Shown here: one piece after another, positions 10,250 to 58,008 of the stretch
Position numbering within the stretch: position 1 is the first letter of the stretch
How the letters are laid out: each line of letters starts with the position of its first letter
From: Saccharothrix ecbatanensis
GTDB lineage: Bacteria > Actinomycetota > Actinomycetes > Mycobacteriales > Pseudonocardiaceae
Length of the DNA: 64,000 bases
Reading direction: 5' to 3'
Assembly (NCBI RefSeq): GCF_014205015.1
Contig: NZ_JACHMO010000001.1
Location: 558,001 to 622,000, forward strand
The notes under the pieces: model-generated
What the model was told of the DNA's origin: nothing
Seen by the model: the letters and a program-made list of their open reading frames with translations, nothing else
The model's database searches: none
Translations under genes and position numbers: made by a program

Positions 10250-11224
10250 TCAGTACTTGCGGTTGGGGAGCTCGGTCTTCGCCTGCTCCGAGGTGAACGT
10301 GGTCTCCTCGGTGACAACGCGCGGCGGGACTTCCTCGCCCGCCAGGACCTTCTTGGACAGGTCCATCAGCTGCTTGCCCAGCAGCGGGTTGCACTCGACG
10401 ATGAAGTTGATCTCACCGGCGGCCAGCGCGGTCATGCCGTCCTTCACCGCGTCCACGGTGATGATCTTGATGTCCTTGCCGGGCACCTTGCCCGCGGCCT
10501 TGATCGCCTCGATCGCGCCCAGACCCATGTCGTCGTTGTGCGCGTAGACCACGTCGATCTGCGGCACCGACTTCAGGAACGCCTCCATGACCTGCTTGCC
10601 ACCCGACCGAGTGAAGTCACCGGTCTGCGTCGCCACGATCTTCAGGTCCGTGCCCGCGATGGCCTCTTCGAAGCCCTTCTTGCGGTCGATCGCAGGAGCC
10701 GCGCCCGTCGTGCCCTGAAGCTCGACGACGTTCTTCGCGCCGGCCGCGTTCTCCTTCAGCCATTCACCGGCCTTCTTGCCTTCCAGTACGAAGTCCGAGC
10801 CGAGGAACGTCTTGTAGAGCGTGGTGTCGTCCGAGTCGATCGCGCGGTCGGTGAGGATGACCGGGATGTTCGCGCGCTTGGCCTCGAGCAGCACGGTGTC
10901 CCAACCGGTCTCGACAACCGGGCTGAAGGCGATGATGTCCACCTTCTGCTGGATGTAGGACCGGATCGCCTTGATCTGGTTCTCCTGCTTCTGCTGCGCG
11001 TCGGAGAACTTCAGGTCGACCCCGGCCGCGGCGGCCTCTTCCTGGATCGACTTGGTGTTCGCGGTGCGCCAGCCGCTCTCGGCGCCCACCTGAGCGAAGC
11101 CCATCGTGATCTTGCCGTCATCCTTGGCGCCGGTCGACCCCGCGTCCCCGGACCCACCGGAACCACACGCGGTCAACGCGGCCAACATGACCGCGACAGC
11201 GGCGGTCGTGATCTTCTTCAACAC
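10250..11224 (-). CDS. ytfQ: Furanose-binding lipoprotein, YtfQ type
   Basis: The 324-residue protein starts at GTG 11224, 6 bases after GGAGGA. A lipoprotein signal with a TACGSG lipobox comes first. The mature part closely follows E. coli YtfQ in recognisable blocks: GFAQVGAESGWR, QQKQENQIKAIRSY, DIIAFSPVVETGW, TDRAID, NVVELQGTTGAAPAIDRKKGF and VYAHNDDMGLGAIEAIK. YtfQ binds galactofuranose. Neighbouring arabinosidases make arabinofuranose an alternative. It is the first gene of the importer operon. Confidence 0.88.
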   Translation of the reverse strand: MLKKITTAAVAVMLAALTACGSGGSGDAGSTGAKDDGKITMGFAQVGAESGWRTANTKSIQEEAAAAGVDLKFSDAQQKQENQIKAIRSYIQQKVDIIAFSPVVETGWDTVLLEAKRANIPVILTDRAIDSDDTTLYKTFLGSDFVLEGKKAGEWLKENAAGAKNVVELQGTTGAAPAIDRKKGFEEAIAGTDLKIVATQTGDFTRSGGKQVMEAFLKSVPQIDVVYAHNDDMGLGAIEAIKAAGKVPGKDIKIITVDAVKDGMTALAAGEINFIVECNPLLGKQLMDLSKKVLAGEEVPPRVVTEETTFTSEQAKTELPNRKY

Positions 11225-41963: not shown

Positions 41964-42395
41964 ATGGCTACTTGGGACGACGTTCACCGCCTCACGTCGG
42001 CGCTGCCCGAGGTCACGGAGCGCCCCTCCTACGACGGACGGCCCGCTTGGCGGGTGAAGGACAAGGCGTTCACGTGGGAAAGACCTCTGCGCAAGGCGGA
42101 CCTGGCCGCCCTCGGCCCGGACGCGCCGGAGGGTCCGGTGCTGGCGGCGAGCGTGCCCGACCTGGGCGCGAAAGAGGCGTTGCTGGCCGACGACCCGGCG
42201 GTCTACTTCACCACGCCGCACTTCGACGGCTACGCCGCGATCCTGGTGCGGCTGGACGAGATCACCGTGCCGGAACTGGAGGAGCTGGTGACCGAGGCCT
42301 GGCTGTGCCGCGCGCCGAAACGCCTCGCCAAGCAGTACGAGGCCGGTCGCGGCGCGCCCCCGGTGGAAGGAGGCGGAGGCACGCCGCGAGCGTGA
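41964..42395 (+). CDS. MmcQ/YjbR-family protein
   Basis: The 143-residue protein starts at ATG 41964. The family pattern is DDVHRLTSALPEVTERPSYDGRPAWRVKDKAFTW and later VYFTTPHFDGYAAILVRLDEI and EAWLCRAPKRLAKQYEA. The fold is CyaY/YjbR-like and the biochemical role is not known; many are thought to bind DNA. It shares the spacer with the divergent epoxide hydrolase and ends 2 bp from a convergent gene. Confidence 0.78.
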   Translation: MATWDDVHRLTSALPEVTERPSYDGRPAWRVKDKAFTWERPLRKADLAALGPDAPEGPVLAASVPDLGAKEALLADDPAVYFTTPHFDGYAAILVRLDEITVPELEELVTEAWLCRAPKRLAKQYEAGRGAPPVEGGGGTPRA

Positions 42396-42396
42396 G

Positions 42397-43593
42397 TCAC
42401 CAGGTGCTGTTGACCAGCCCGGTGCCCAGGTAGACCTGGTCGAACCCGTTGCCGTCGTTGTCGTCGGTGTAGGCGATGGTGATCCGGCCCCACCCGTCCA
42501 CGCCGAGCGCGGGCTCGTCCTGTCGCCCGGTCGCCGTCGAGACCGTCGGCTGGCGCGGCAGCCTGCCCGCGACCGTGCCGTCCGGGTTCAGGCCCTGCGT
42601 CACCACGTCCTGCGCCTCGACGGACGAGACCACCACGTTCAGCTGGTCGTCGATGCCGATCTGCGGGTCGACGCCCGCGAGGAGGGTGTCGGTTGCCATC
42701 CGGGCGGTGCCGGCGGCGTTGAACGACCGCACGGCCACCTGCGCCGTGCCGGTGTGGTCGGTTTCCCAGGCCACCGCGTGGTCGCCGTTGAAGTTCGCCG
42801 CCACGACGGGCCGCCGCTGCTGCCCGCCACCGTTCGCGTTGACCGCGCCCTGCGCCACCTTCACGCCACCGGCCGGGGTGAGGACCTTGCGGCCGATGTT
42901 GAAGAACGCGTTGCCGTCGCCGTCCTCGTCCCACACCACGATCGCGTTGCCCGCCGCGCCCATGGCCACGTCCGGCCGCTGGTGCGTGCCGCCGGTCGTG
43001 TTGACCTGCGCCTCGTACGTCTTCGACGTGATGGAGGCGAACCCGGCGATCCGCACGGTCGGGTTGGTGGTGGACTGCTTGTCCTCCCACACCACCGCGA
43101 AACCGCTCGTGTCGGGGTCGGCGGCGACGGCCGGGTCGAGCTGCTGGCCGTCCGTGTTCGCGTTGGCCCGCGCGGAACCGGTGACCGTGCCGGTCGTGCC
43201 CAGCTCGCGCACCTGGATGTTGTAGTAGCCGTTGCCGTCCCCGTCGTCGGCCCACACCACGACCGCGGTGCCGTTGTCGTGCACGGCCACGTCCGGCTGC
43301 ACGTGCCGCCAGTTCCCGGTGCCGCCCGTGGACAGCTTCTTCTCGTAGCGGGACACGCCGTCCTTGAACAGGCGCACCCACACGTCGCTGTGCACGGGGT
43401 CGGTCGGCGTCGTGCTGTCGCGGTCGTCCTCCCAGACCACGGCGGTCCAGCCGTTGCGCACGGCCGACACGGCGGCGTTGTCCTGGTCGCCGGTGGCCGT
43501 GCTGTTCGCGGCGATCCACGTGGCCGCCGCCGACGCGGTGCCGGCGCCCAGCAGCATGAGCGCGACCGCGGTGATGATCGTCAGCTTCTTCAT
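42397..43593 (-). CDS. Secreted repeat protein coupled to phoD, unknown function
   Basis: The 398-residue protein starts at ATG 43593, overlapping the phoD stop by ATGA. The signal peptide ends at GTASAAA. The rest is built from about five repeats of 60-70 residues with a shared core such as RPDVAM...GNAIVVWDEDGDGNAFFNI, which suggests a beta-propeller with Asp-rich, possibly Ca-binding, loops. The coupling implies a role beside the PhoD phosphatase. Since phoD is now split by an 8.5-kb element, expression of this gene may be reduced. Confidence 0.7.
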   Translation of the reverse strand: MKKLTIITAVALMLLGAGTASAAATWIAANSTATGDQDNAAVSAVRNGWTAVVWEDDRDSTTPTDPVHSDVWVRLFKDGVSRYEKKLSTGGTGNWRHVQPDVAVHDNGTAVVVWADDGDGNGYYNIQVRELGTTGTVTGSARANANTDGQQLDPAVAADPDTSGFAVVWEDKQSTTNPTVRIAGFASITSKTYEAQVNTTGGTHQRPDVAMGAAGNAIVVWDEDGDGNAFFNIGRKVLTPAGGVKVAQGAVNANGGGQQRRPVVAANFNGDHAVAWETDHTGTAQVAVRSFNAAGTARMATDTLLAGVDPQIGIDDQLNVVVSSVEAQDVVTQGLNPDGTVAGRLPRQPTVSTATGRQDEPALGVDGWGRITIAYTDDNDGNGFDQVYLGTGLVNSTW

Positions 43594-44403
43594 GGCGCCT
43601 GCAATCCGGGGTTGCCTGCCTGGATGACGTAGCTCTTCAGGGTCCTGATCGGGTAGTCGCGCGTGGTGACCCGGTCCAGGAAGCGGAAGTCGACGTTCAC
43701 CTGGGTGGGTGAGGTGACGGTCCGGACGTAGCCGCGCAGGTTCTTGTAGAACTTCACGTGCGGGTTGAGGCTGGACAGGCCGTTGTCCGTGGCGCTGCCG
43801 TCGCCGCCGGACGTCACCGACGTGGTGACCAGTTCCGTGCCGACGATCCGGTCCTGCGTGGTGTAGTTCGCCATCAGGTTGCTCGCCCACGACCGGTGCA
43901 CGTCACCGGTCAGCACCACGGTGTTGCGCAGACCCGCCGCGTCCCAGCCGCGCTGCAAGCGGTCGCGGTTGGCGGTGTAGCCGTCCCACGAGTCCATCGA
44001 CTTCGCGCCGTCCGCCGAGGCGAGCTTCTGCGCGAAGAAGACCTGCTGGCCGAGGAAGTCCCAGGTGCCGAGCTTCTGGCGCATGCCGTCGAGGAGCCAC
44101 GCTTCCTGCGTCGCGCCGGTGAGCGTGCGGGCCGGGTCGGAGGCGTCCGCGCACACCTTGGTGCCGTCACCGCAGGCCTGGTCGTCGCGGTACTGGCGGG
44201 TGTCGAGCATGTGGAACGTGGCCAGGCTGCCCCAGCGGACGCGGCGGTACAGCTGCATGTTCTCCGCGACCGGCGCTTGTGCGGCACGCAGTGGCATGTG
44301 CTCGTAGTACGCCTTGTACGCGGCCGCACGGCGGAGTTTGAAGTCGCCGGCCGGGGAAGTGTTGGCGCGCACCAGGTTCGCGTAGTTGTTCTCCACCTCG
44401 TGG
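43590..44403 (-). pseudogene. phoD: phoD alkaline phosphatase, C-terminal part (split by an integrative element)
   Basis: This is the second half of phoD: it begins inside the metal-site motif as CHEVENNYANLVRAN-type sequence (H-E-V-E-N-N-Y) and includes DTRQYRD, GQQVFFAQKL and the metal-binding VVLTGDVHRSW. The first half is at 52935-53632. Joined at the GA dinucleotide, the halves give one continuous 504-codon frame. Without the first half it lacks signal peptide and start, so it is not expected to work while the element is integrated. Confidence 0.9.
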
Positions 44404-44428
44404 TCCCACCACGTTGGTCAGCCAACTA
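44391..44428. other. attL of the phoD-integrated element
   Basis: Host sequence CTCCACCTCGTGG is followed by the crossover TC (44404-44405, GA on the coding strand of phoD), then element sequence CCACCACGTTGGTCAGCC. The integrase gene starts 61 bp away. Confidence 0.82.
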
Positions 44429-44465
44429 CAGTCGATAGCGGCGTCTACCAGCGAGGATACCGACC

Positions 44466-46100
44466 ATGAGCGCACCGACACCCCGGAAGCGGCGGCCCCG
44501 GTTCAAGAGGCAGACCAGCGACCGGAGTCCAGTCGTCCCGTTCACCCCGGACGACGATGCGGCGCTGTGCTATGTCCGACAGTCGCACTTCACGGACGAG
44601 AGCACGTCAAGCGAGGTCCAGACGCGGGACACACACCGGTGGGCGAACGCCTACGGCGTCCCGATCGTGGAAACCGTGGAAGACCTGCACGTTTCCGGCG
44701 ATCTGGAACCGTACAAGCGGGACGGGCTCAAACTCTGGTTGTCGGACGTGGCCCCGATGCCGTGGAAAACGCTGGTCGTGTCCAAACTGGACAGGCTGGT
44801 TCGCAATGTCATGGATGCGCTTACCCTGCTGGAGTGGCTGAGGGCGCGGGGAAAGCGGCTGGTATGCATTGCGGAAGGCATCGACTCCAGTAACTCGATG
44901 TCGGAATTCCTGATTACGTTGATCGCCGCGTTCGCTCGCATGGAACGCGAGCGGATGAAAGAGCGTTTCCGTGATGCGAAGGCGAGGCTCAAGGAAGCGG
45001 GGCGCTGGTCGGGTGAGGGGCACATCTATGGCACCATGCCGGTGGAGTTGCCCGGTGGGGGCTGGATTCTCGGGCTCGATCCGTATGCGGTCAAGATTCT
45101 TCACGCGTTGTCCAAGATGGCAAGGGCGGGCAAGAGTCTCACGGAGATGTGCGATTGGTTGACCGAAAACAAGATTGTGTCCCCAAGGGACCGGCAATTG
45201 CAGCTATCGGCGGAACGGCGCGGAGAAAACTTTTCAACGGTGGAACTCAAGGGGTACGAGTGGACGGGAACCCCGCTCCGTCGCTTGCTCGAACATCCGG
45301 ACCTTGTCGAGTTGGGCATCTTCGAGCCCGCCGAACAAGCGGAGATAACTGCCCGGCTGGAAGAAAAGGCGCGACGGAAGACGCGAGGCAGCAATCAGCC
45401 GTACCAGTTTTCCGGTGTCCTGGTGTGTCCGGAATGCCTCGAACCCCTATGGCACCGTATCGCCCATCAGAAGCGGAAGCGTAACGATGGCACGACAATC
45501 GAATACGAATACCAGTACTGGCGTTGTCCTACGCGCAAGCATGGTCCATCCATGCGGGCCGAGGAGATCGAACCGTTGGCCGAACAGGCTTTCTACAAAA
45601 TCTTCGCTATGGTTCCGGTCCGGGAACGCATCGTTTTGCCGCCGACCAGCCACGCGAACGAAATAGCCAAGCTGGAACGGGAATATGGCAAGTTGATGTC
45701 CGGGGTGGCGCGGGCCAAGTCGTCGGAAGACCGCACTCGGATCATGAATGATGGTAATCGGATTCTGGCCGATATCGACACGCTCAGGGCGCTTCCGGCC
45801 GATCCAGGCGGCGTGCAGTGGGTTCCAACCGATCGAACCTGGCAACAGGAGCTAGCGGGTATGTCCCCGGAAGACCGACGCCTTAGGTGGCTCGAATTGG
45901 GGTTCACCTTCGCGGTCGGAAAACGGGCCGACGGCAAATGGTCGGCTGCCTGGCGTTTGCCGGACGGCTGGCAGGATGCAATGCCGGAACTGGCTGAATG
46001 GCACGACCGGATCGGCAGTACCGGGCAGACGGTCGAAATCGCCGACCTGCTCGACTGGACAACGGCCGGACCTGCAAAGCCGGAACACGGTACAGCCTGA
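44466..46100 (+). CDS. int: Large serine recombinase (integrase)
   Basis: The 544-residue protein starts at ATG 44466 after GAGGA. The resolvase-like domain has the catalytic S40 in CYVRQS, then LVVSKLDRLVRNVMDAL and ITLIAAFARMERERMKERFRDAK. A recombinase domain (about 175-300) follows, then a zinc ribbon (CPECLEPLW ... RCPTRKHG) and a coiled-coil-prone region (about 395-440). Large serine integrases join attP and attB with a 2-bp staggered cut, matching the GA crossover found. It is next to attL. Confidence 0.93.
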   Translation: MSAPTPRKRRPRFKRQTSDRSPVVPFTPDDDAALCYVRQSHFTDESTSSEVQTRDTHRWANAYGVPIVETVEDLHVSGDLEPYKRDGLKLWLSDVAPMPWKTLVVSKLDRLVRNVMDALTLLEWLRARGKRLVCIAEGIDSSNSMSEFLITLIAAFARMERERMKERFRDAKARLKEAGRWSGEGHIYGTMPVELPGGGWILGLDPYAVKILHALSKMARAGKSLTEMCDWLTENKIVSPRDRQLQLSAERRGENFSTVELKGYEWTGTPLRRLLEHPDLVELGIFEPAEQAEITARLEEKARRKTRGSNQPYQFSGVLVCPECLEPLWHRIAHQKRKRNDGTTIEYEYQYWRCPTRKHGPSMRAEEIEPLAEQAFYKIFAMVPVRERIVLPPTSHANEIAKLEREYGKLMSGVARAKSSEDRTRIMNDGNRILADIDTLRALPADPGGVQWVPTDRTWQQELAGMSPEDRRLRWLELGFTFAVGKRADGKWSAAWRLPDGWQDAMPELAEWHDRIGSTGQTVEIADLLDWTTAGPAKPEHGTA

Positions 46101-46114
46101 AAACCAATAGACAG

Positions 46115-46159
46115 ACGACAGAGCGCCCCTCCGCACGCTGCGGAGGGGCGCTCTGTCGT
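46115..46159. terminator. Terminator between int and the minus-strand tra operon
   Basis: A perfect 21-bp stem (46115-46135 with 46139-46159) has a 3-base loop, 15 bp after the int stop and 15 bp after the stop of the convergent small ORF. It should stop transcripts from both sides. Confidence 0.85.
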
Positions 46160-46173
46160 TAAGGCAGACGGGG

Positions 46174-46356
46174 TCACCGTCCGTGTGGCTGTTCCGGAAT
46201 CAGTACCTCGCATACCTCATTGATCCTGTCCGCCAACTGCCGTACATCTACGCCGTCCACGGTGACCCACAGTGCACCGTCCGATCCTGTCGTGAGCGTC
46301 GCCGGAATCCGCCGCCCATCATCCTCTGTGGACGCTGGAACGGTGGCGTCAGTCAT
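46174..46356 (-). CDS. Small ORF at the end of the tra operon
   Basis: A 60-residue reading starts at ATG 46356, overlapping the traB-like stop by 8 bp. The product contains GALWVTVDGVDVRQLADRIN and is acidic. No family is recognised. Close coupling to the translocase gene supports it being real. Confidence 0.55.
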   Translation of the reverse strand: MTDATVPASTEDDGRRIPATLTTGSDGALWVTVDGVDVRQLADRINEVCEVLIPEQPHGR

Positions 46357-48679
46357 CGTGCGGCCCTGCCTCGCCCTCTGTAGGGAGGGAGCCACCGACA
46401 AGCCCACCAGACCCCGGAACCCGGCCCGTCGCCGGACCGCTCACAAGCGGACCGGTTTGCCTCCCTGACAGGCGTTTCCGCTGCTCAGCAGAGGGAAGCG
46501 GGTCCAGGGAGGGGGCAGGGAAAGATCCCTGACTCCCTGTCTCCCCCCTACCGTCCACAGAGGTTCCGCAACCAGCGTCGTCGTGGCTGCGGCGGGCGAT
46601 CGCGTCGGCAACGTCCTCGAACCGAACGACCATCGCGCCATCGGATTTACGGGGCCGGATACCCAACCCGACAAGCGCGGCCCGCAGATCACGCGCGGTC
46701 CACGGCTCGTATTCATCTGGATTGAGCGCGACGAGTCGCGCGAGAACAGTTTGAGTGCGGACACGACTTTCCCCTTCGATCACCGATCGGATGTCATGCA
46801 GATGGTCAACTGGTGTGGCTTCGACTTCTTTCGGGGCGGGACCCGCCGTGAGGCGCGGAGACGCGACATCGGACATCGCGCGTGCGATGACGGGTGTCAC
46901 CTCGTCAATACCGTCCTCGAACGGCAGATAGAACGTGCGTACAAGCTCAAACGAATTGTGTGTGACCCCGACTGCAACGCAGGTTCCCCGATCGGTATGC
47001 ATCCTCAATTCAGTAGCCCGCACGCCGGACCGGTACTTACCTGATCCCAACAGTCCGTCATTGGCAATATGGTCCGCGACGGCGAACGCCACGCCACAGG
47101 CCACGTTACGCGTGATCTCCTTAGGAATGCTGTCCTTTGTCGGCGACTGGGTCGCCAACAGGACAACGATCCCGTACTTTCGGCCACGCTTGATCAGTTT
47201 GACCGCTAATTCCTCCGCACGCTTTCCGTGCTTCGGGTGCTGGAAAAGTTCATGACACTCATCGATCGACAGAACGATCGGATGCAACCCCAAACGCGGA
47301 TTATCGGCAAGTCGCCGCGACACCTTCGGCGGCCGACCCGACTGCTCCCCGAGGGCACGACCACGACGCTCCATCTCACTTAGAAGGTCCTCAAGCGCTC
47401 CGACGGCATCGGCCGCGACCGAATCATCCATTCCCATGCGATAGCGACTCAAGCGCGGTGCCAGCGGATCGAAGTCCGGACTTTCGCCCATCACAAACAC
47501 CCACAGTTCGGCGGTGGGATCGAGCGCCGCTCCGACCATGAGCACCCGGAGAAGGTTCGTCTTCCCCTGCCCCGGCCGACCACCGATCAACCAATTGCTA
47601 CCGATCAGCGGTGCATTGACCACCAACCCGCGTTGCGTCAAACCGAACGGGACACCCTCGAACACATCAACGGTTCCATCACGCAACAGCGGCCAATCGC
47701 CAGCACCACCGGAAAGAGTTCCCTTGTCAGCAATCCACAGATCCAGAAGCCCGTCTTCCTCACCCGTGGTGGGCCACGTCTCCAATGACGCGCGACCAAG
47801 GTTGGCCGCCAACACCTTCCGCCGGTCGGATACCATCTCCGCCGTAACTCCGAGCGGCAGGCGGATTTGCGCTTGGGTGCCGTCTCCGTCCTTTCGCGCG
47901 GCAACGGTGTAGACGAGTTCGCCGCCACCCTTGAGGAAGGAATTCAGGGGCGCGATTCCCAGATGCGCAAGCGCCCTGGTGATCATCCTTTCGTCCACCC
48001 AGGAATCGGAATCGTGCCGGTCCGGTCGCGTCAGCCATCCCGCACCCGGTGTGCGGTCACGGCCTTCCCACACGGCCGCCACGACCACCCCGGCCACAGC
48101 CAGCGAGGGAAACCACGGCAATACCGCCGAAACCGCAGCCGTCAGAGCGTCCCTGATGGAGTAGACGGCCCTGAGCCACCCCGGCATAGCCGACCGGTCC
48201 AGAACGGCGTCCATGAGCGCTAGGAGGACCAGCAGCGTCGTCACGGCCGCCGCGCCGACAAGCACCCTCCGCAGGAAGATCCCCAACTTGGCCCACCGCG
48301 CCTTCGCGTCGGACCTGATCAACTCCTGAGCCGTGCGCCGCGCCTGGACGTCCCCGGACAGCCGGGCCGCTCGGGCGTCGGCACGAAGGTCCGAGTACGA
48401 CGCCCACCGCCACCCCTTGGCGATCCACCGCCCGCTTCCCCGGGTGAGGAACCACAACAGGCGGACTACATCGCGAGGCACATTGCGCGCCCGGTACGTG
48501 ATCACCGACCGCACCCGGATCATCACGTCAAGATCCACGACGGACCGCACGGCTGCCTTAATCTTGAGCGGCGATTTCCCTTGTGTTGTAACGGTTTTGC
48601 TCTCGGAGACGAACTCTCCATCTAGGACTTGACGGACGAGCTCCCCGCCACCGTCAGCAAGATCACCTTGAGAGGTCAT
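46349..48679 (-). CDS. FtsK/SpoIIIE-like DNA translocase (TraB/TraSA type)
   Basis: The 776-residue protein starts at ATG 48679 (ATGA overlap). Two membrane segments (about 133-160 and 184-204) lie in the N-terminal third. The motor has Walker A GGRPGQGKTN (366-375) and Walker B IVLSIDECHELF (468-479). A region around 640-720 may be a winged helix for DNA recognition, and the tail is low-complexity. In AICEs and Streptomyces plasmids this single protein moves double-stranded DNA between mycelia. It is the main transfer candidate here. Confidence 0.87.
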   Translation of the reverse strand: MTSQGDLADGGGELVRQVLDGEFVSESKTVTTQGKSPLKIKAAVRSVVDLDVMIRVRSVITYRARNVPRDVVRLLWFLTRGSGRWIAKGWRWASYSDLRADARAARLSGDVQARRTAQELIRSDAKARWAKLGIFLRRVLVGAAAVTTLLVLLALMDAVLDRSAMPGWLRAVYSIRDALTAAVSAVLPWFPSLAVAGVVVAAVWEGRDRTPGAGWLTRPDRHDSDSWVDERMITRALAHLGIAPLNSFLKGGGELVYTVAARKDGDGTQAQIRLPLGVTAEMVSDRRKVLAANLGRASLETWPTTGEEDGLLDLWIADKGTLSGGAGDWPLLRDGTVDVFEGVPFGLTQRGLVVNAPLIGSNWLIGGRPGQGKTNLLRVLMVGAALDPTAELWVFVMGESPDFDPLAPRLSRYRMGMDDSVAADAVGALEDLLSEMERRGRALGEQSGRPPKVSRRLADNPRLGLHPIVLSIDECHELFQHPKHGKRAEELAVKLIKRGRKYGIVVLLATQSPTKDSIPKEITRNVACGVAFAVADHIANDGLLGSGKYRSGVRATELRMHTDRGTCVAVGVTHNSFELVRTFYLPFEDGIDEVTPVIARAMSDVASPRLTAGPAPKEVEATPVDHLHDIRSVIEGESRVRTQTVLARLVALNPDEYEPWTARDLRAALVGLGIRPRKSDGAMVVRFEDVADAIARRSHDDAGCGTSVDGRGETGSQGSFPAPSLDPLPSAEQRKRLSGRQTGPLVSGPATGRVPGSGGLVGGSLPTEGEAGPHDD

Positions 48680-49011
48680 CGCCGGCGCTGCCCCCGAACC
48701 CGGTCATCGACGGCCGCCACGGTCAGCGCCCGGACCAGGACCCATGACGCGAACATCGCCGGCACCGCCAACGCCGCCAGCTTCACCCACCCCGACGTGT
48801 CAGGGTGCGTCAGCGCCAGCCACTGCACCCCTGAGATGAGCAGAGCGCCCACGACCACCCGACCTGTCAGCGACAGCAGCCGCACACCACCACGGGCAGC
48901 CTTAGCCGCCTTACGCGCCCTCCTGATCGACAGTCGCCACGCCACCCAGAGCACCAGGACGGCGACTAGCCCGGACAACATGAGCGCCGGGGACAACTCG
49001 ATCCCCGTCAT
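48676..49011 (-). CDS. Small membrane protein of the tra operon
   Basis: A 111-residue protein starts at ATG 49011, overlapping the WhiB-like stop by ATGA. Hydrophobic segments lie at about 8-26, 48-66 and 76-95, with a basic stretch RRARKAAKAAR between the first two and a basic C-terminus RVRGQRRR. Its place before traB suggests a spread (Spd)-like accessory role. That is an inference from position. Confidence 0.65.
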   Translation of the reverse strand: MTGIELSPALMLSGLVAVLVLWVAWRLSIRRARKAAKAARGGVRLLSLTGRVVVGALLISGVQWLALTHPDTSGWVKLAALAVPAMFASWVLVRALTVAAVDDRVRGQRRR

Positions 49012-49352
49012 GGCTGCTCACCCGCTACGGTGCCGCCGTCACGGCGTTCCTCCCAGCACTCGTAGACCGCGCGCCGCTCGTCCTCGGGCAACGGACCCCA
49101 CACGCCGGCCGTCGCGTGACCACGAGTGCGGAACTCCCACTCCAGACACTCACGCTGGACCGGACACGCCGCACACACACGCGCGGCCAACTCCCGATCC
49201 GACCGGAAGTCACCCGTCCACTCCGGGTACTCGCCACTAGTCGACAGCCACCCGCACAGGCCCCGATTCCGGACCGCGTGCGCAAGCTGGTCATCCGCCA
49301 GCTCCGCGCACCCGTCAAGATCGGCGGCAACCCTCTCGTAGAAGTCGTTCAT
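49008..49352 (-). CDS. WhiB-like (Wbl) iron-sulfur regulator
   Basis: The 114-residue protein starts at ATG 49352. Four Cys fit the Wbl cluster: C33, then C60-x2-C63-x5-C69 (VCAACPVQREC). GVWG (83-86) is the Wbl turn, here followed by PLPEDER. Wbl proteins sense redox state through a 4Fe-4S cluster and often bind the principal sigma factor. In this operon it probably controls transfer genes of the element. Confidence 0.85.
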   Translation of the reverse strand: MNDFYERVAADLDGCAELADDQLAHAVRNRGLCGWLSTSGEYPEWTGDFRSDRELAARVCAACPVQRECLEWEFRTRGHATAGVWGPLPEDERRAVYECWEERRDGGTVAGEQP

Positions 49353-49528
49353 CGGTGGGCACCGCCAACCAGGTGCGCAACGGCGGTGCACGGAACTCGC
49401 ATCTCGCCACGCCGCCACACCACGGGCAGCGTGCCGACACGAACCGCACGGCACACATTGGCCACACTGCCGCCAGTCAGCCACGCCACTTGCCTTAGAG
49501 ACAGCAACTCAGTACGCGACATACGCAT
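49349..49528 (-). CDS. AlpA/excisionase-like HTH protein
   Basis: The 59-residue protein starts at ATG 49528, 9 bases after GAAGGA. The MerR-type HTH core is LSLRQVAWLTGGSVANVCRAVRVGTLPVVWRRGEMRVP. It overlaps the WhiB-like gene by ATGA and leads the tra operon. It may be a transcription activator or the recombination directionality factor needed for excision by the serine integrase. The choice cannot be made from sequence. Confidence 0.65.
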   Translation of the reverse strand: MRMSRTELLSLRQVAWLTGGSVANVCRAVRVGTLPVVWRRGEMRVPCTAVAHLVGGAHR

Positions 49529-49746
49529 GATTGGTGTTCCTTCACTTGAGGCGTCGGCTCGTGAATTCACGGGCCGTGCCATCAAGTAGGCGGGAACGCT
49601 GCGACCACGACTATGTCACACGGTAGATATACGTATGCCGGCGATGACATACCGCAGGTCAGGAACGGTGCATCCCAACGCGATATGCTCAGGAAGAATA
49701 TCCGGGTACAGCGATATTCAGTGCGAGGATGTTGATCAGCGGTCCA
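49529..49746 (-). promoter_or_regulatory. Control region of the tra operon (gene-free)
   Basis: This 218-bp spacer is AT-rich for this genome, with several GATAT/ATATC words (near 49627, 49682, 49698, 49712). It must hold the promoter of the minus-strand operon. No clean -35/-10 pair can be fixed. Confidence 0.45.
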
Positions 49747-51237
49747 TCACACGCCGTCTGCGCGGGGGTGATCGACGCCAGCCTTAACCTGCTTGAACAG
49801 GTCGCGGAAGTCGGAGCCGGCACGGACGCCATATGTGCTTAGCTCATCGTCCAGCTCAGATGCGACCATGAGGAGAGACGGCCGACTCTGTCGCCCGTGT
49901 TGCAACGCCTCCATGCCAGCAGCCGCAGCGCCTTCCACATCACCCGACCGGGCCGCGACGACGGCTAGCGTCAGCTTTGCCTCTGTGCTGCGCATGGGAG
50001 AGATGACGAAACCGTCCGTAGTCACGCTGCGCCGGATCACTTCTTCGGCGTTCCGCTTAGCCAAATCGTCGCGGCCAACGATCCGGTACGTGTCCATCGC
50101 GTAGAAGTCCCACTTCTCTGGGTCGACTACGAAGTGGTTTTCGGGACGCTCCGGATACGGCAATTCGCCCAGTAGCTCACTGCCACGCTCTAGAGCTGCG
50201 TATACATCCTCGGCCATTCCCATTCGCGCATACGCCTTAGCCTGCTGCCCATAGAGCTGAACCGCAACCGACTGGGACGGGGCCGAAATAATACCCGCTT
50301 GCGCGGCCTGAATCACCGCGCGATAGTTTCCCGCCGTGAGGTGGAACCAGGCCAACATCTCGTGAGCCCAGCCAACGATTGAAGCATCACCGGACTCGTT
50401 CCCTAGTTCCAGTGCCATTCTGCGAGTCGCCTTGGCGGCATTCATGTCGCCCAAGTCGTTTTCAAGACAGCCGACCAACAACGCCAGCAATCCCGCATTG
50501 TGCAGGAGGTCGCGATGCTGAGGAAGGGTCAACTGCTTTCCTAGCTGCATACTGACATGGTTAAGCCAGTACCTGCCCTTACGCATGAGTTCCCGCGCGT
50601 CAGCGTGCGCATAGTCGCAGCACAGTTGTTCCACGGTCAGACTCAGCGCGTCAATAGTTGGCTGATCCATTGCCGAGGCACGGACGCGTCGCACTAGCTC
50701 AGCCGTGTCCATTCCAGTGTTGGCGACCAGGATTCGGTTCTGCACCTCGGAATCCACCGGCCCGCCATCCGCTCGGATGGACCTTGACTCAGGAAGCCGC
50801 AAGCGCGTTTGACCCGGAAGGTCGAACCAAAGCATATGCGGGGGGAGATGCAGGATCTTGGACCAGTTTTGCAGGGTCTCAAGGTACTGCTCGGGCTTAC
50901 CGTTTTCAATCCTGCTTACCTGAGCTTGAGTCAGGCCCAACCATCGTCCTAGCAGCTCTTGCGTAAGAGCCTTGCCGAACAAGGTCAGGTGGCGCGGATG
51001 GTTCCTATATGCCTTGAACACTCGCCCGATGTGCTGGCTCGCAAAGGCCGCCCGAAAGTCGTCCGTCTCAAAGAACTCATGCCGCAATTGTGCGGGAGGT
51101 GTCCGAAGTTGATCGCGTTGCTCCCTGTGGCAACGTCCACACAGCCGGGCCGAGTTGTCGGCAGCAAGCACTGCGTTGCAGCCCTGACAGCGACGGCCGC
51201 CACTAGGGGCCGCGCCCTGTGAACCAGGTGCACCCAT
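49747..51237 (-). CDS. XRE-family regulator with N-terminal zinc ribbon and TPR-like C-terminus
   Basis: The 496-residue protein starts at ATG 51237. A zinc ribbon (C17, C20, C33, C36) precedes an HTH (about 88-140: LTQELLGRWLGLTQAQVSRIENGKPEQYLETLQ). The remainder is helical repeats such as LHNAGLLALLVGCLENDLGDMNAAKATRRMA and AQAYGQQAKAYARMG-like units. Long XRE-TPR regulators are common in actinobacteria and often answer peptide or small-molecule signals. It is the best candidate for the element's master repressor/activator. Confidence 0.78.
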   Translation of the reverse strand: MGAPGSQGAAPSGGRRCQGCNAVLAADNSARLCGRCHREQRDQLRTPPAQLRHEFFETDDFRAAFASQHIGRVFKAYRNHPRHLTLFGKALTQELLGRWLGLTQAQVSRIENGKPEQYLETLQNWSKILHLPPHMLWFDLPGQTRLRLPESRSIRADGGPVDSEVQNRILVANTGMDTAELVRRVRASAMDQPTIDALSLTVEQLCCDYAHADARELMRKGRYWLNHVSMQLGKQLTLPQHRDLLHNAGLLALLVGCLENDLGDMNAAKATRRMALELGNESGDASIVGWAHEMLAWFHLTAGNYRAVIQAAQAGIISAPSQSVAVQLYGQQAKAYARMGMAEDVYAALERGSELLGELPYPERPENHFVVDPEKWDFYAMDTYRIVGRDDLAKRNAEEVIRRSVTTDGFVISPMRSTEAKLTLAVVAARSGDVEGAAAAGMEALQHGRQSRPSLLMVASELDDELSTYGVRAGSDFRDLFKQVKAGVDHPRADGV

Positions 51238-51357
51238 CTCTTGACTTCCCCCGTCACGGTCGCGGCGGACGCCTACCTGGGACCCAGAGTACCTACGAGC
51301 TCATGTGCACACCATCGGGTTACACCGATCGCTGTTAGTCCGACCCCTGACAGGCGT

Positions 51358-51396
51358 TATGCCGAGTTGAACATGAGGCATGTCGAACTCGGCATA
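51358..51396. promoter_or_regulatory. 39-bp palindrome between the XRE and Imm1 genes
   Basis: Two 18-base arms (51358-51375, 51379-51396) pair at 16 of 18 positions around AGG. The outer TATGCCGAGTT/AACTCGGCATA is perfect over 11 bp. It lies in the 256-bp divergent spacer, which holds no other gene. It could be a regulator site, a transfer origin or an RNA hairpin. Confidence 0.75.
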
Positions 51397-51493
51397 GACA
51401 TCCGTCCTCGCCCGGCGCGACCGTTGACGAGAAACAGGGCTCATCGGGCGCACTCCCTTCGTGGAGAGTCGCGCAAAATTTGAGTGGAAGCGC

Positions 51494-51934
51494 ATGTTTG
51501 TGACAGCAGTGCTGACGACTGGAGTTGCTCGCGTCACTGAGGGAATGCGTAACTCCACGCGACTCATGGACGAGGTACTGCGCATGGACCACACCGAATG
51601 GGAAACAATGATGTACGTCGGTGACAGTGAGTTTCGAGTCACCCAGGAAGGCCCGCACCCAAACCACCAACTACGAGTAAGCGTCCGACCGGCATACGGG
51701 TTCGCTGCGCTGAACTACATGGATCAGGAAGACCCACACCTGACCATCGCGAACTCATACAACCCAATACGCCCGGTGCCGGATGTGGATCTAATTTTCA
51801 GCGGATCGACGGGCACTGTTTTTCCTCGCACTGCCGCCATTTCGATTGTCGACGCGCGCTCCGCGCTAGTCGAATGGCTGATGACGCGCAAGCGACCGAG
51901 TTGCATTCAGTGGCGTCCATACGACGCCTACTGA
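51494..51934 (+). CDS. Imm1-like immunity protein
   Basis: A 146-residue product is predicted from ATG 51494 (GGAAG upstream); a start at 51461 is possible. The middle GFAALNYMDQEDPHLTIANS and the end ARSALVEWLMTRKRPSCIQW fit the actinobacterial Imm1 pattern, which commonly ends near RPTCVEW. Imm1 proteins neutralise nuclease-type polymorphic toxins. No toxin gene is next to it, so it looks like an orphan cargo gene of the element. Confidence 0.62.
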   Translation: MFVTAVLTTGVARVTEGMRNSTRLMDEVLRMDHTEWETMMYVGDSEFRVTQEGPHPNHQLRVSVRPAYGFAALNYMDQEDPHLTIANSYNPIRPVPDVDLIFSGSTGTVFPRTAAISIVDARSALVEWLMTRKRPSCIQWRPYDAY

Positions 51935-51961
51935 CCGAAATACTTCCTTAGGAGGTATGCG

Positions 51962-52129
51962 GTGACTAGCCTGAAGCCTTGGATGCGCCAGCGCCGCAGT
52001 GAAACACGTAAGCAACTACTAGACCGACTAAGTCAATCCTGCTACCGCTGCGGTATGCAGATTGCCGATCAGGCCAAGCTTGCCTACCACGAAGACACGT
52101 GTACCGGCGCTCAGGCGATTACGGCTTGA
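51962..52129 (+). CDS. 55-residue zinc-finger-like protein
   Basis: GTG 51962 follows a near-perfect AGGAGG site, 27 bp after the Imm1 stop. The basic N-terminus (MRQRRSETRKQLLDRL) is followed by a single CxxC...HxxxxC knuckle (CYRCG ... HEDTC). The strong ribosome site and spacing say it is expressed with the Imm1 gene. A DNA- or RNA-binding role is plausible but not shown. Confidence 0.6.
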   Translation: MTSLKPWMRQRRSETRKQLLDRLSQSCYRCGMQIADQAKLAYHEDTCTGAQAITA

Positions 52130-52163
52130 CTTATTGAACCGAACCGGCGCATTGCCATCCCGC

Positions 52164-52445
52164 GTGCGTGGCGGGTTTGCCAATGCGTCACAACTGGAAA
52201 GAGTGACTGAAGAAATGCAAGCCGAGCTTGGTGCGCGAGTCCGTACCAGTGCAGACATCGACGCGAACTGCTTGATCGAGTATGAGGTTACGGGCAAGGC
52301 GGCGTTCTTCTCATTTGCGGACGGCGCGGTTAGCCTGCACTTTACCGATGAGCGCGCGTTCAGGAAGTTCATGGGGGAGGCAATCAAGGTGTTGAGCGTC
52401 CTCGGTCTTGACGACTTTGACCATGTTACAAATGGCAATGACTAG
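52164..52445 (+). CDS. Hypothetical protein of the element
   Basis: About 93 residues from GTG 52164; TTG starts at 52134 or 52062 are in frame, and none has a good ribosome site. The product reads like a folded protein (LIEYEVTGKAAFFSFADGAVSLHFTDERAFRKFM). No family is recognised. It overlaps the next gene by 8 bp. Confidence 0.5.
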   Translation: MRGGFANASQLERVTEEMQAELGARVRTSADIDANCLIEYEVTGKAAFFSFADGAVSLHFTDERAFRKFMGEAIKVLSVLGLDDFDHVTNGND

Positions 52446-52716
52446 GCCGAGCGTTGTCGCATTAGAGGACCATGACGCGGCACCCACGTCCCATCGGTAC
52501 TCAGTCAGACTTCGCGCGGATTATTTTTCCAAAGCCGTGACACTCGCTGGCTTCCGGAGTGGCTACGCCTTGGCTAAAGAGATGCGCCTTGCACGGTCCA
52601 CAGTCATGCGTATATGCGCCGGGGAAATGCAGCCCGGTCCAGCCTTCATCGGAGGGGCGCTGACGGTACTTGCGCCTATGAAGTTTGAGGACCTATTTGA
52701 AGTCGTGGCCATCTGA
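52438..52716 (+). CDS. Small HTH (XRE-like) protein
   Basis: A 92-residue product from ATG 52438 (ATG 52432 is an alternative). An HTH-like core, VTLAGFRSGYALAKEMRLARSTVMRICAGEMQPGPAFIGG, resembles phage-type XRE regulators. It is the last gene before attR. The 219 bp between it and attR hold no gene, only a small hairpin (AGGCTC-GTA-GAGCCT, 52888-52902). Confidence 0.58.
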   Translation: MTRPSVVALEDHDAAPTSHRYSVRLRADYFSKAVTLAGFRSGYALAKEMRLARSTVMRICAGEMQPGPAFIGGALTVLAPMKFEDLFEVVAI

Positions 52717-52909
52717 CCTTGGGGGCCGGTTAGGCCCTTCGCCTTGACGGTTTCCTGCTGAGGTTCACCTTGGCAGAGCGCACTGTTTCCAGGCAGTCAA
52801 ACTCTGGGTGCCCTTTCCAGATATGAGCGCTGGCCCAACGGCTTGAATTGGGTATCAAGATCATGCACCGCACCTTGCCCCAGCTAGAGGCTCGTAGAGC
52901 CTGCTAAGC

Positions 52910-52952
52910 TGTTGTTAGTTGACACACATGGTGGTCGTCCCAGACGACGAGC
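52910..52952. other. attR of the phoD-integrated element
   Basis: Element sequence GTTGACACACATGGTGG is followed by the crossover TC (52935-52936) and host sequence GTCCCAGACGACGAGCC. With attL it predicts attP TGGTGG-TC-CCACCA and attB CCTCGTGG-TC-GTCCCAG (plus-strand sense). Confidence 0.82.
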
Positions 52953-53632
52953 CACGGCGCGGCGGCGTGCGCGGCCTGGAGGTCCACGTCCGTCTTGTAC
53001 TGCGCGTGACGCACCCGGTAGTTGGCGAGGTTCGCGATCTCCACCGTCGGCGCGTGCTTGCGGACCGCGGTCGTCGACGCGGCGCCTTCGTAGAGGTAGT
53101 CGCCCAGGTGCAGGATCAGGTGCGGGTTCTCTTCGGCCATGCGGCGGTAGGCGGTGAAGTAGCCGGCCTCGAAGTGCGAGCACGAGGTGAAGAGCATGGT
53201 CAACGACGGACTGGTGCCGACCGCGGGCGCCGTCACGCCACGGCCGACGGGGGAGATGTGGCCAGCGGCGCGGAAGCGGTAGAAGTACTCGCGGCCGGGG
53301 AGGAGGCCGGTCACCTCGACGTGGACGCTGTGCGCCCGCGTCTGCGATGCGGTCGCCGTGCCGCTGCGGACGATCTGGGTGAACCGCTGGTCGGTCGAGA
53401 CTTGCCACTCGACCGTGACGGAGGCGCTGGTCATGCCGCCCAGGCCGTCGGCGTTGAGCGGGCTCGGCGCCAGACGGGTCCAGATCACGAACCCGTCAGC
53501 CGCCGGCTCACCCGAAGCCACACCGAGCGTGAAGGGGTAGGAGATGGCGTTCGCGGTGGTGGGTGCGAGAACCGTAACGCCGGCGCTCGCGATGCCGCCG
53601 GCGATGAGCGTTCGTCGAGTCAGTGGGGACAT
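52935..53632 (-). pseudogene. phoD: phoD alkaline phosphatase, N-terminal part (split by an integrative element)
   Basis: ATG 53632 follows GGAGA. The Tat signal SPLTRRTLIAGG leads into a PhoD N-terminal domain (SYPFTLGVASGEP ... FVIWTRLAP) and the metal sites SCSHFE, LHLGDYLYEG and VVWDD. At D233 the frame leaves phoD and reads ten element codons (ending QLTTA) to a stop at 52904. The missing half is at 43590-44403. PhoD is an exported Ca/Fe phosphodiesterase/phosphatase that frees phosphate from organic esters. Confidence 0.9.
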
Positions 53633-53849
53633 CGGCTCTCCTTCGGTGCAGGGCCGGGGAAGAACGCGTTTCCGGTACTGCGTACACGGCGAAGGTGATC
53701 AGCGGCCATCCCCGACGTGTACGCCGGGTGGAGCCCCAAGAGGCCGCCGGTGCGCCACATCGGACCTCCGCACGTGACGTCGCAGGTGAATGCCTGTCCA
53801 ACTGTCCGATGTATTGGTTACCGAAGAACATGGCGAATGGCGTTGGCCC
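53633..53849. other. Upstream region of phoD, no gene seen
   Basis: This holds the phoD ribosome site and presumably its promoter. An ATTCACC word near 53792 on the minus strand recalls half a PHO box, but the tandem 11-bp pattern of a true box is missing. Confidence 0.3.
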
Positions 53850-54110
53850 TCACCGATCGCAGATTTCCATACCTCCCGCCACTGACGGAGCAGCCGTCTC
53901 ACCCAGCCACACCACATGCGCCCGCCGCGTCCCGGCCGAGCGGGAGCTGATCTCGAACACCATCCGGGCGCTCTCCGCGCTCTCGGAGCTGAGTCGGAAG
54001 CCGCCTTCCACGGAGCCGACTTCGGCACGGTCGGGGTAAGCCAGTCCGTACCCCGCGACGCGTGCGTCCTCCGCTTCGCCGTACTCCTCTACGATGGCGA
54101 ACAGTCGCGG
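53850..54110 (-). pseudogene. C-terminal remnant of an unknown gene
   Basis: The minus frame encodes a protein-like end (RLFAIVEEYGEAEDARVAGYG, then EGGFRLSSESAESARMVFEI and AHVVWLGE) and a proper stop at 53850. Upstream the same frame immediately becomes antisense to the XRE pseudogene, with no start of its own. The two genes seem to have been joined by a deletion near 54110. Confidence 0.5.
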
Positions 54111-54111
54111 A

Positions 54112-55222
54112 GCGTCGGCGAAGGTCGAATCAGGCGAACGCGAGCTGGTACGCCTGCCCATGATCGAAGCCGTGGCCGACGCACTGGGGATCGACCCTGC
54201 CGTGCTCACCGACCCGGTCCGCGCCGAACGCACCCGACGTTGCGTGGACACATTCGAAGTCCAAGCCATCCGCACCGCTCTTGCGACATATCCAGGCGTG
54301 GCCGTCCGTGTCCCCGAGAAGATCGGCTTGGCCGACATCAAACGTCAGGCTTCGTACCTCGACCACGCCTGGATGACGTCACGGTTCACGGTCGTCGCCC
54401 GCCATCTGCCGAAGCTCATGGCTGACGCCCAAGCCGCCGCGCGGCCCGATGTCGGGGCCGATCACGTCGAAGTATCCCGGAGCGTGGTGACGGCCTATCG
54501 CCTGGCGTCATCCATGTTGTTGAAGTTCGAATCACATGACGTCGCGTGGCTCGCAGCTGATCGTGCCATGCACACCGCACTCAGCGTTGACGACACCTGG
54601 TCCATGGCCAGGGCGACCCGCAGCGTGGCCCGGGCGATGACCGGAATCCACGAACAGCCGCAGGCCATAGCGGTGCTGTTGGCCATGGCCGACCGGATGC
54701 GCGACGAGGTCAACGCCGACGTCGGGCAACTCCTGGCACTACAGGGGATGCTGTACCTCGCGGCCTCGATCACGGCGGCCGGGCAGGAGGACGCCTCGCT
54801 CGCCAGGCAGATGCACGAAGAGGCGATGGCTGCCGCACGCAGGTTCCAGCCTCACCACGACGACCACCACACGTTCTTCGGGCTCGCCAACACCATGATC
54901 CACCGCGTGTCGGCACTGGTTGCGACTGCACGAAGCCGGGCGCGCCATGGAATTCGCCAAGACGATCGACCTCCGTGCGGTCATGGCGCTGTCGGCCGAG
55001 CGACAGTCGAACTACCTGCTCGACCTCACCGAGGCACACGCCGGCGTCGGCAACTACCGGGAGGCAGTCCGCTTTCTCGGGCAAGCTGAACGAGTCGCGC
55101 CGGAAGAGGTGCGCTGCCGACCGTTGGCACACGGGTTGCTCCGGTCGCTGCTGCACAACACGACGGGTGAGTCGGCACGGGTGGTTCGGCAGATGGCCGG
55201 ACGGGCGGGGGTTGAGGCGTGA
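54112..55222 (+). pseudogene. Broken XRE-family regulator (N-terminus lost, frameshift)
   Basis: The frame opens at the end of an HTH (AKVESGERELVRLPMIEAVADALGI) without the first helices. It continues as TPR-like helices to about 54920, where it must shift to continue as LHEAGRAMEFAKTIDLRAVMALSAERQSNYLLDLTEAHAGVGNY to the stop at 55222. One extra base near 54922 (GGTTGCGACTGCACG) would explain the shift. It overlaps the flavoprotein gene by GTGA, a common actinobacterial pair. Confidence 0.75.
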
Positions 55223-55803
55223 GCGCACCGGTTCTCTACCTGATGATCTGTGGCGCGGGGCCGGCCGATCACGTCGAGCGGGTGGTGAAGCTCGCCCAAG
55301 AGGACGGTTGGGACGTCTGGTGCATCGCCACGCCGTCCGCGGTCGAGTACTTCCTTGGTCTGGACGCGTTGGCGGAACTCACCGGACACCCGGTGCGCAC
55401 CGGTCAGCAACGTGCGGGGCAGCCCGCCTTGCCCAAGGCCGTTGCCGTGGTCGTTGCGCCGGCGACCTACAACACCATCAACAAGTGGGCGGCGGGGATC
55501 GCGGACACCTACGTGCTCACTCAGCTGGCCGAACTGACCGGGCTCGGCCTGCCGATCGCGGTGCTGCCGTTCGTGAACACGGCGCTGGCGAACAACCGGG
55601 TGTTCCACCGGAGCGTTGCGGAACTGCGTGAATCCGGCGTCACGGTGCTCTTCGGCGAGGACGGCTTCGTGCCGCATCCGCCTCGGACCGGTGGCCAAGT
55701 GATGGACTCCTACCCCTGGCACCTGGCGTTGGAGGCGATCACAGCGGGTCGCGGTACCGTCGAGCATGATCGTGTGGCTGAACGGGACTTTCGGCGCGGG
55801 TAA
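55219..55803 (+). CDS. HFCD-family flavoprotein (CoaC-like)
   Basis: The 194-residue protein starts at GTG 55219, overlapping the broken regulator stop. Family marks are YLMICGAGPADHVERVVKLAQEDGWDVWCIATPSA, VAPATYNTINKWAAGIADTYVLTQLAE and LPIAVLPFVNTALANNRVF. These match flavin-binding HFCD proteins such as phosphopantothenoylcysteine decarboxylase, though this short stand-alone type has no assigned reaction. Its partner regulator is decayed. Confidence 0.8.
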   Translation: MSAPVLYLMICGAGPADHVERVVKLAQEDGWDVWCIATPSAVEYFLGLDALAELTGHPVRTGQQRAGQPALPKAVAVVVAPATYNTINKWAAGIADTYVLTQLAELTGLGLPIAVLPFVNTALANNRVFHRSVAELRESGVTVLFGEDGFVPHPPRTGGQVMDSYPWHLALEAITAGRGTVEHDRVAERDFRRG

Positions 55804-56284
55804 GACCACGACCGCGGGCGAGTTGGCGGGCATCCTGCCGGACACGCGGATCTTCGACTCCGAGCACGTCGGCTACATGCTGCGGCATGTGATGACGGAG
55901 CCGGTCGAGAACTTCCAGGACTGGGCGCCGTGGCGTCCGCTGGTGGCGCGCACGGCGGTCGAGATCGTCCGTTCAGCCGGCGGCAACCTCGTCATCCCGC
56001 AGACCGTCCTGAACGAGGACTACCTCCAAGAGATCTTCACCGGCTTGCGCGACGAAGGCCTGGAGGTCCGGCACTTCCTCCTCCACGTCGAGAAGAACGC
56101 GCTCGTCGACCGCATCAAGGGCGACCTCGACGATCCCGGCGCGCAGGAATGGCGCCTGAACCACGTCGACCGCTACCAGGCCGCCCTCCCGTGGCTGCGC
56201 GACGCCGCCGAGGTCATCGACACCACCGACGTGCCCGCACCCGAAGTCGCCCGGAAGATCGCCGCACGACTAGGGCTGAACTAG
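55766..56284 (+). CDS. P-loop ATPase, TmrB-like
   Basis: The 172-residue protein starts at ATG 55766, 38 bp inside the flavoprotein gene. The start MIVWLNGTFGAGKTTTAGELAG holds Walker A, with IFDSEHVGYMLRHVM next and a lid-like DRIKGDLDDPGAQEWRLNHVDRYQ. This matches small kinases around TmrB, which gives tunicamycin resistance in Bacillus. Resistance here is only a possibility. Confidence 0.75.
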   Translation: MIVWLNGTFGAGKTTTAGELAGILPDTRIFDSEHVGYMLRHVMTEPVENFQDWAPWRPLVARTAVEIVRSAGGNLVIPQTVLNEDYLQEIFTGLRDEGLEVRHFLLHVEKNALVDRIKGDLDDPGAQEWRLNHVDRYQAALPWLRDAAEVIDTTDVPAPEVARKIAARLGLN

Positions 56285-56905
56285 ACGTCACCGGAGGGCA
56301 GGCCGCGGTACTCGATGTGGAGTTCTCGGGCGTTGCCGAGGATGCCGTCATTGGAGTGGATCCGCGCGCAGTAGTGCTGGTCGTCGCCCGTCGGCCCGTG
56401 CTGGGCGACGTCCAGGAAGTGTCCGGCGGTCTCCGTGAACAGCCGCGCGCTGCCGGTCATGAACAGCGTCTCCGCGTGGACGTGCTGGTGGAACAGGTCG
56501 CGGTTCTCCCGGTAGTGGCGGGCCGCGAGGTCGACCTCGGGACGCGCCCGCGGCAGTTCGGCGACGTGCGGCCGGCCCGGACCCAGTCGCGTCCGCAGCT
56601 CCTTCCACCGGGCGGGCGCGAACTGGAGCGAGTGGTGCAGCAGCACCAGGTCCAGCCGGCTGCCGTCACCGGGAGCGCCGGCAGCCCGCAGCGGCAGGTG
56701 GATCAGCGAACGCTGGGAGCGCGCGGCGAGCAGCCACAAACCGGCCACCGTCCGCGCGCTGCCCGCGTCGAGGGAGAAGGTCAGCCACCGGTCGTCGTCC
56801 ACGAGCAGCGCCTGGCCGAGCGACCGCGCGGGCCGGACGACCCGGTACCGGTCGGCTCCCAGCCGGGCCTCGTGGACCAGCACCGGCACCCGTTCGCCCA
56901 CACCG

Positions 56906-56916
<11 letters not shown>
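56281..56916 (-). CDS. Hypothetical protein downstream of galK
   Basis: A 211-residue protein starts at GTG 56916, overlapping the galK stop by 11 bp. It has predicted beta segments in the first half and a helical, His-rich second half (RHYRENRDLFHQHVHAETLF). No family is recognised. It is the third gene of the LacI-galK operon and ends 4 bp into the convergent TmrB-like gene. Confidence 0.6.

Positions 56917-58008
<1,092 letters not shown>

Follow-up and report, generated by a model that had tools for sequence, protein, structure and literature searches.

An 8,531-bp element resembling actinomycete integrative and conjugative elements (AICEs) entered a phoD gene of Saccharothrix ecbatanensis, most likely through its own serine integrase. 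It lies in the window that we analysed, a stretch of 64,000 nucleotides (bases 558001-622000 of the genome; single contig, 9,689,237 bases). The bacterial attachment site, attB, would be the DNA encoding WDDHE(V/T)xNN, the metal-site motif of PhoD. Crossover probably takes place at a GA in the second Asp codon, and excision by the integrase together with a putative directionality factor would restore phoD exactly. The choice of target likely reflects a coding sequence that is constrained and occurs in several redundant copies, not control of phosphate scavenging. We give roughly 0.88 probability to this reading, in which an AICE-like element used its own integrase to enter phoD at the metal-site motif codons, a redundant landing site. 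Sequence comparison shows a precise insertion, a site that is empty in relatives, a symmetric attachment site of the element (attP) and, in nine genomes, recurrence at these codons across four PhoD groups; we regard redundancy and codon constraint as the most likely account of the target.

The original prediction took two minus-strand fragments to be the halves of one PhoD, and the rebuilt reading frame, its end-to-end alignment with orthologues and the empty sites described below all agree. Joining minus-strand pieces 53632-52935 and 44403-43590 gives 1,512 nt in a single open frame of 503 amino acids (aa) plus stop and rebuilds the motif WDDHEVENNY. The joined protein aligns with B. subtilis PhoD (PDB 2yeq) over residues 28-501, and this end-to-end similarity to a solved PhoD, with the motif and the iron-site Cys both present, places it in the family. 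As it stands, the N-terminal frame runs into the element and ends in the tail WDDHHVCQLTTA at a stop at 52904. The crossover falls in the second Asp codon of WDDHE, leaving the N-terminal fragment without Asn-272 (B. subtilis numbering) or anything downstream. The B. subtilis structure has Cys-180 among its iron ligands and Asn-272 among those of calcium B (PMC4223295); by hand count from the Cys along the 2yeq alignment, Asn-272 is the second Asn of WDDHEVENNY. With the element in place this PhoD is presumably inactive, because its N-terminal fragment has neither the Asn of the motif that binds calcium nor any of the C-terminal half. Elsewhere in the genome, three further PhoD-family genes match the profile nearly end to end, and a fourth place matches in part only; because of these three genes, loss of one phoD may cost little.

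Relatives carry the gene uninterrupted. We searched 25 genomes of the genus, including the window's own, where the gene is in two pieces. Of the 24 others, 21 had an orthologue without interruption, 82-95% identical over residues 1-503; two of the remaining three had no match and one a distant match only. Syntenic loci were compared in two relatives: window positions 42393-44405 and 52925-53859 are contiguous in the first (L081), as are 42396-44405 and 52931-53838 in the second (L082), so that both have an empty site. The closest orthologue (L007, 95%) matches the rebuilt attB at all 51 bases shown across the junction. As predicted, then, relatives have an uninterrupted phoD with the expected attB and not the same two-part gene, and the joined protein aligns end to end. 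It is extremely improbable that an old split gene, or paralogue fragments paired by chance, account for the two pieces, given this alignment, the synteny, the identical empty site and the same two-ended arrangement in four other genomes; the intact orthologues and contiguous syntenic loci led us to reject chance pairing. Adjoining phoD, about 3 kb of the window (53860-56926, with open reading frames (ORFs) at 54094-55089 and 55219-55803) has no match in L081 though both sides match, indicating a second insertion or a deletion.

Similar integrases lie beside PhoD genes elsewhere in the family. Searching 390 family genomes with the integrase (E-value 1e-100 or better) gave 19 matches in 17 genomes, window included. 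Flanks were tested with the window PhoD and an intact PhoD from the same genome (L003) as queries, and in G082 (43% identical) with the window PhoD only. Nine of the 19 integrases adjoin a PhoD-family C-terminal half cut at the WDDHE codons, and these nine are all those with at least 77.7% identity; none of the ten at 76% or less (one at 43%) adjoins a PhoD half. The nine cases are the window, L037 (Amycolatopsis anabasis), L038, L039 (Amycolatopsis sp. CA-126428), L040 (Actinokineospora sp. NBRC 105648), L046 (Actinokineospora diospyrosa), L071 (from the window's genus), L072 and L073. Nine of nine beside PhoD is not chance, because by our estimate PhoD genes account for far less than 1% of such a genome. 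Across the order, 397 evenly drawn genomes, overlapping the earlier ones, yielded the integrase in seven, all already known. The record for L038 is labelled Rhodococcus rhodnii NRRL B-16535, but the same contig occurs in a genome (G217) classified in the window's family, and the label looks doubtful; over the part compared, the L038 integrase is identical to one named from Kibdelosporangium aridum.

By their C-terminal halves, the interrupted genes fall into four divergent PhoD groups: the window with L046 (79%), L037 with L038 (76%), L039 alone (46-49% to those four) and a group of L040, L071, L072 and L073 (73-89% among themselves, 26-37% to the rest). Because these groups are cut at the same codons, attB would be the DNA coding for the conserved metal-site motif. 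The sister element at L071 is collinear over all ten ORFs, yet sits in a different phoD paralogue, of which the window genome has an intact close relative (L003, 92-94% over most of the length). Elements with both ends measure 8.5 kb (window and L071), 9.7 kb (L037), 10.7 kb (L046) and 15.3 kb (L073).

The junctions have the structure of a large serine integrase element, with an identical short core in attL and attR, inverted symmetry in attP and an empty attB in relatives. Both ends carry the same 6-bp block, GTGGTC as read on the plus strand (GACCAC on the minus), at 44400-44405 and 52931-52936. The original prediction placed a shared GA at the junctions and a serine integrase 61 bp from the left one: GA/TC is indeed the best centre of attP symmetry, but the identical block is the 6 bp and not GA alone, and the integrase is present at a distance, from core to its ATG at 44466, of 60 bp. 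Symmetry was scored over 20 arm positions about every dinucleotide within 8 positions of TC (17 offsets). In the window attP the best centre was TC (GA on the minus strand), with 15/20 arm positions (runner-up offset, 9), and TC was also best in L071 (17/20), L037 (16/20) and L046 (13/20), making four of the five elements with both ends found. The identical end block measures 8 bp in L037, 4 bp (GGTC) in L073 and 6 bp in the other three elements (window, L071 and L046), and always contains TC. The central dinucleotide of a serine integrase site is expected to be non-palindromic, and TC/GA fits. About TC, the window attB scored 9/20, not its best offset, with no clear symmetry, and attB symmetry about TC was not clear in any of the five elements. 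Elsewhere in the genome, a 17-base attB pattern with 2 mismatches allowed performed no better than its reversed control (39 sites against 34); the only exact match was in an intact phoD paralogue, which differs at 2 positions from a 24-base attB pattern. The empty sites, the symmetric attP and recurrence in eight other genomes support the prediction that a serine integrase put the 8.5-kb element into phoD and that its excision would restore the gene exactly.

Several observations weigh against this reading. Only five of the nine cases have both ends, with the N-terminal PhoD half at the far one; L039 and L040 reach a contig end, L038 nearly does and the far end of L072 was not within the 19.9 kb examined, so in these four the PhoD claim concerns the integrase side alone. 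In L073, TC is not the centre of attP, one arm apparently being 1 base shorter. Other stretches of phoD are more conserved than the core, whose 40-bp segment, at 91.0% identity (mean 86.6%), ranks 340 of 1,467. Furthermore, the integrase tree does not support the nine PhoD-site integrases as a clade: constraining them to one costs 29 log units (approximately unbiased test, p-AU 0.030), and a clade of the nine plus L045 costs 3.4 log units (p 0.108). A single origin of phoD targeting is doubtful on this phylogeny.

Targets seem to change within the integrase group. L045 adjoins a HerA-like gene, and two Crossiella relatives of the integrase sit outside phoD; these gene names were given by eye, with no search made. 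In one Crossiella locus (L041, near 10001 and 19700) an integrase relative appears, likewise by eye and with no search made, to split an endonuclease/exonuclease/phosphatase-like gene. Junctions in L043, L044, L074, L076 and L077 carry inverted repeats that appear to be hairpins, one side reading CGTGAGTG and the other CACTCACG; judged by eye, their central dinucleotide differs, being CT or AG. At L044 and L067, which belong to one genome and have no PhoD flank, the integrase-side flank is only 81 bases, over which a PhoD protein test says little; the flank bases resemble the CGTGAGTG sites.

Integration was also predicted to work as a switch for a phosphate-scavenging enzyme. This does not follow, since three other PhoD-family genes remain and the interrupted phoD paralogue of G013, the genome carrying L071, is frameshifted (L071 about 10478-10481, in the N-terminal half near residue 85; real decay or sequencing error). 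We consider it improbable that the element leaves phoD under phosphate starvation or differentiation, toggling the phosphatase to the benefit of the host. Such regulated gene integrity would be helped by exact restoration of the frame on excision, by the single frame kept in four of the five joined phoD genes and by the regulators on the element (WhiB and NsdA-like), and switches of this kind exist for other genes according to passages of PMC10111431. The ratio of nonsynonymous to synonymous substitution (dN/dS) between the window gene and six of the 21 intact orthologues was 0.11-0.18 and so not raised above the values that these six give among themselves (0.16-0.29); with the open joined frame, this points to either a recent insertion or a phoD that is maintained. 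Besides the redundant genes and the G013 frameshift, regulated excision is disfavoured by the lack of any phosphate-related gene among the ten element ORFs scanned and by related elements that carry the same backbone without a phoD insertion. Slightly less probable still is a more specific version, an AICE-like lineage of Pseudonocardiaceae specialised on PhoD catalytic-motif codons, whose regulated excision, for example upon phosphate starvation or differentiation, would reactivate the enzyme in a switch usable in any of several phoD paralogues. A dead end, with the element stuck and the split phoD heading for loss, has perhaps one chance in a few: the G013 frameshift (if not a sequencing error) and the remaining paralogues are consistent with it, but in the window the integrase and the attP arms seem undamaged, and the joined phoD frame is open and has a low dN/dS, though a recent insertion would look alike. 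We retain the redundant landing site as the preferred reading.

Guanine plus cytosine make up 57-68% of 1-kb segments within the element, against 66-73% in the flanks profiled. Proteins of its ten ORFs were scanned against Pfam, NCBIfam and PHROGs; in order, they are the integrase, a small ORF, an FtsK/SpoIIIE translocase, a 111-aa protein, WhiB, a small winged helix-turn-helix (HTH) protein, an NsdA-like regulator, Imm1, a 127-aa ORF and an HTH protein (Table 1). A Resolvase N-terminal domain and a large C-terminal part identify the first as a large serine integrase; its Recombinase and zinc-ribbon matches are present but below cut-offs. Directly after its stop codon lies a perfect 21-bp inverted repeat with a 3-nt loop (46115-46159), probably a terminator. 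No convincing direct repeats were found as possible transfer loci. Among the 18 other loci, some of which end early at contig ends, 16 have a match to the translocase (59-83% identity over the best-matching stretch) and 12 a match to the NsdA-like regulator (34-90%), in both cases including loci that have a PhoD target and loci that do not. Of the 390 family genomes, 29 contain the NsdA-like gene (E-value 1e-120 or better), 12 of them among the 17 with this integrase type. The Imm1-type immunity protein has no obvious toxin partner among the ten ORFs scanned and was matched in 12/18 related loci.

Table 1. Coordinates (window positions) of phoD, the attachment sites and the ten ORFs of the element. 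TPR, tetratricopeptide repeat.
Feature	Position	Strand	Basis
phoD C-terminal part	43590..44405	-	crossover to stop codon; orthologues in genus
attL	44400..44405	.	6-bp GTGGTC block; proposed crossover dinucleotide TC at 44404-44405
attP arm, integrase side	44406..44433	.	inverted symmetry about TC
Large serine integrase, 544 aa	44466..46100	+	Resolvase 8.7e-32, above cut-off; phrog_95 integrase 8.3e-72
Small conserved ORF, 77 aa	46174..46407	-	partial matches in 18/18 other loci
FtsK/SpoIIIE-type translocase, 776 aa, probably TraB-like	46349..48679	-	PF01580 6.5e-08, above cut-off; PHROGs scan
111-aa protein	48676..49011	-	no family above cut-off
WhiB-like protein, 158 aa	49008..49484	-	3.7e-10
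Small winged-helix ORF, 78 aa, overlaps WhiB frame	49349..49585	-	0.0047, below cut-off; weak assignment
HTH + NsdA-family TPR-like regulator, 496 aa	49747..51237	-	NF053720, 97.8 bits (cut-off 75)
Imm1-like immunity protein, 157 aa	51461..51934	+	3.6e-16
127-aa ORF	52062..52445	+	among 18 other loci, match only in L071
HTH DNA-binding protein, 102 aa	52408..52716	+	phrog_3642, 6.9e-14; among 18 other loci, match only in L071
attP arm, far end	52907..52934	.	includes shared GTGG; inverted symmetry about TC
attR	52931..52936	.	6-bp GTGGTC block; proposed crossover dinucleotide TC at 52935-52936
phoD N-terminal part	52935..53632	-	start codon to crossover GA; orthologues in genus

A phage identity and a plasmid-borne relative of the integrase were considered and rejected. 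No phage structural gene is present among the ten ORFs, the translocase giving a weak terminase match too. All 677 phage records matched by the integrase are below 60% identity (best 20 of 677, 28-30%), as are all 24 plasmid records, and a scan of viral contigs gave three loci, each with only an 81-residue match at 32%. Relatives of the translocase occur on 54 plasmid records (44 of Streptomyces), at below 60% identity and with none covering 80% at one place. An AICE would be expected to encode a replication initiator (Rep) such as RepSA, RepAM or prim-pol; no Rep family was found among the ten ORFs in the three libraries, which do not include the RepSA profile of Ghinet et al. As described in passages of Ghinet 2011 (PMC3218068), an AICE search looks for Int, Rep and an FtsK-type Tra, and elements without tra or rep are set aside as remnants or mobilizable elements. 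Judged by gene content, the phoD element has the FtsK/SpoIIIE-type protein and apparently no Rep, and because no Rep was found we call it no more than AICE-like.

The original prediction knew of no description of insertion in phoD, and our search likewise found no report of phoD as a serine-integrase attB in the main texts that it covered, a scope outside which the survey Mageeney 2020 and supplements fall. The sole full-text match for phoD with integration terms was a broad review (PMC12857756), which mentions phoD once; among the titles listed in wider searches, none concerns phoD. The main texts of Integrase-On-Demand (PMC12884075) and of the Amycolatopsis marina vector paper contain neither phoD nor phosphatase, and that of Ghinet 2011 lacks the word phosphatase. 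An excerpt of the TIGER/Islander announcement gives about 1.75 million islands, a set that may contain these phoD insertions unnamed.

With this case, phoD joins the genes split by integrative elements. The target of an integrase group appears to be set by the codons of an enzyme active-site motif, and paralogues only 26% identical over the C-terminal half therefore offer a landing site. This gives a predictable integration site across these actinomycetes, and the five elements supply new serine integrases with paired att sites for strain engineering; the phoD case also makes the switching-back of an interrupted phosphatase directly testable.

Like the phoD element, actinobacterial phage serine integrases use a short common core with a non-palindromic central dinucleotide. 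They differ in sequence (<60% identity), and the carrier in phoD has no phage structural gene among its ten ORFs. AICEs, in passages of PMC3218068, share with it an integrase and an FtsK/SpoIIIE-type transfer protein; some use serine recombinases, a number of these in protein-coding genes, and some carry NsdA-like and WhiB regulators. They differ in that no replication initiator was found in the phoD element. Cases of regulated gene integrity in sporulation and other genes, as excerpted from PMC10111431, likewise involve insertion inside a coding gene, an attP without replacement sequence and predicted exact restoration on excision, but the phoD element is not known to excise in a regulated way, and its host has redundant paralogues. 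A further parallel is an integrase clade that targets prophage late genes (PMC10111431), where related integrases also repeatedly choose one kind of functional gene; there, satellites enter prophage genes, whereas here the target is the catalytic-motif codons of a host enzyme across its paralogues.

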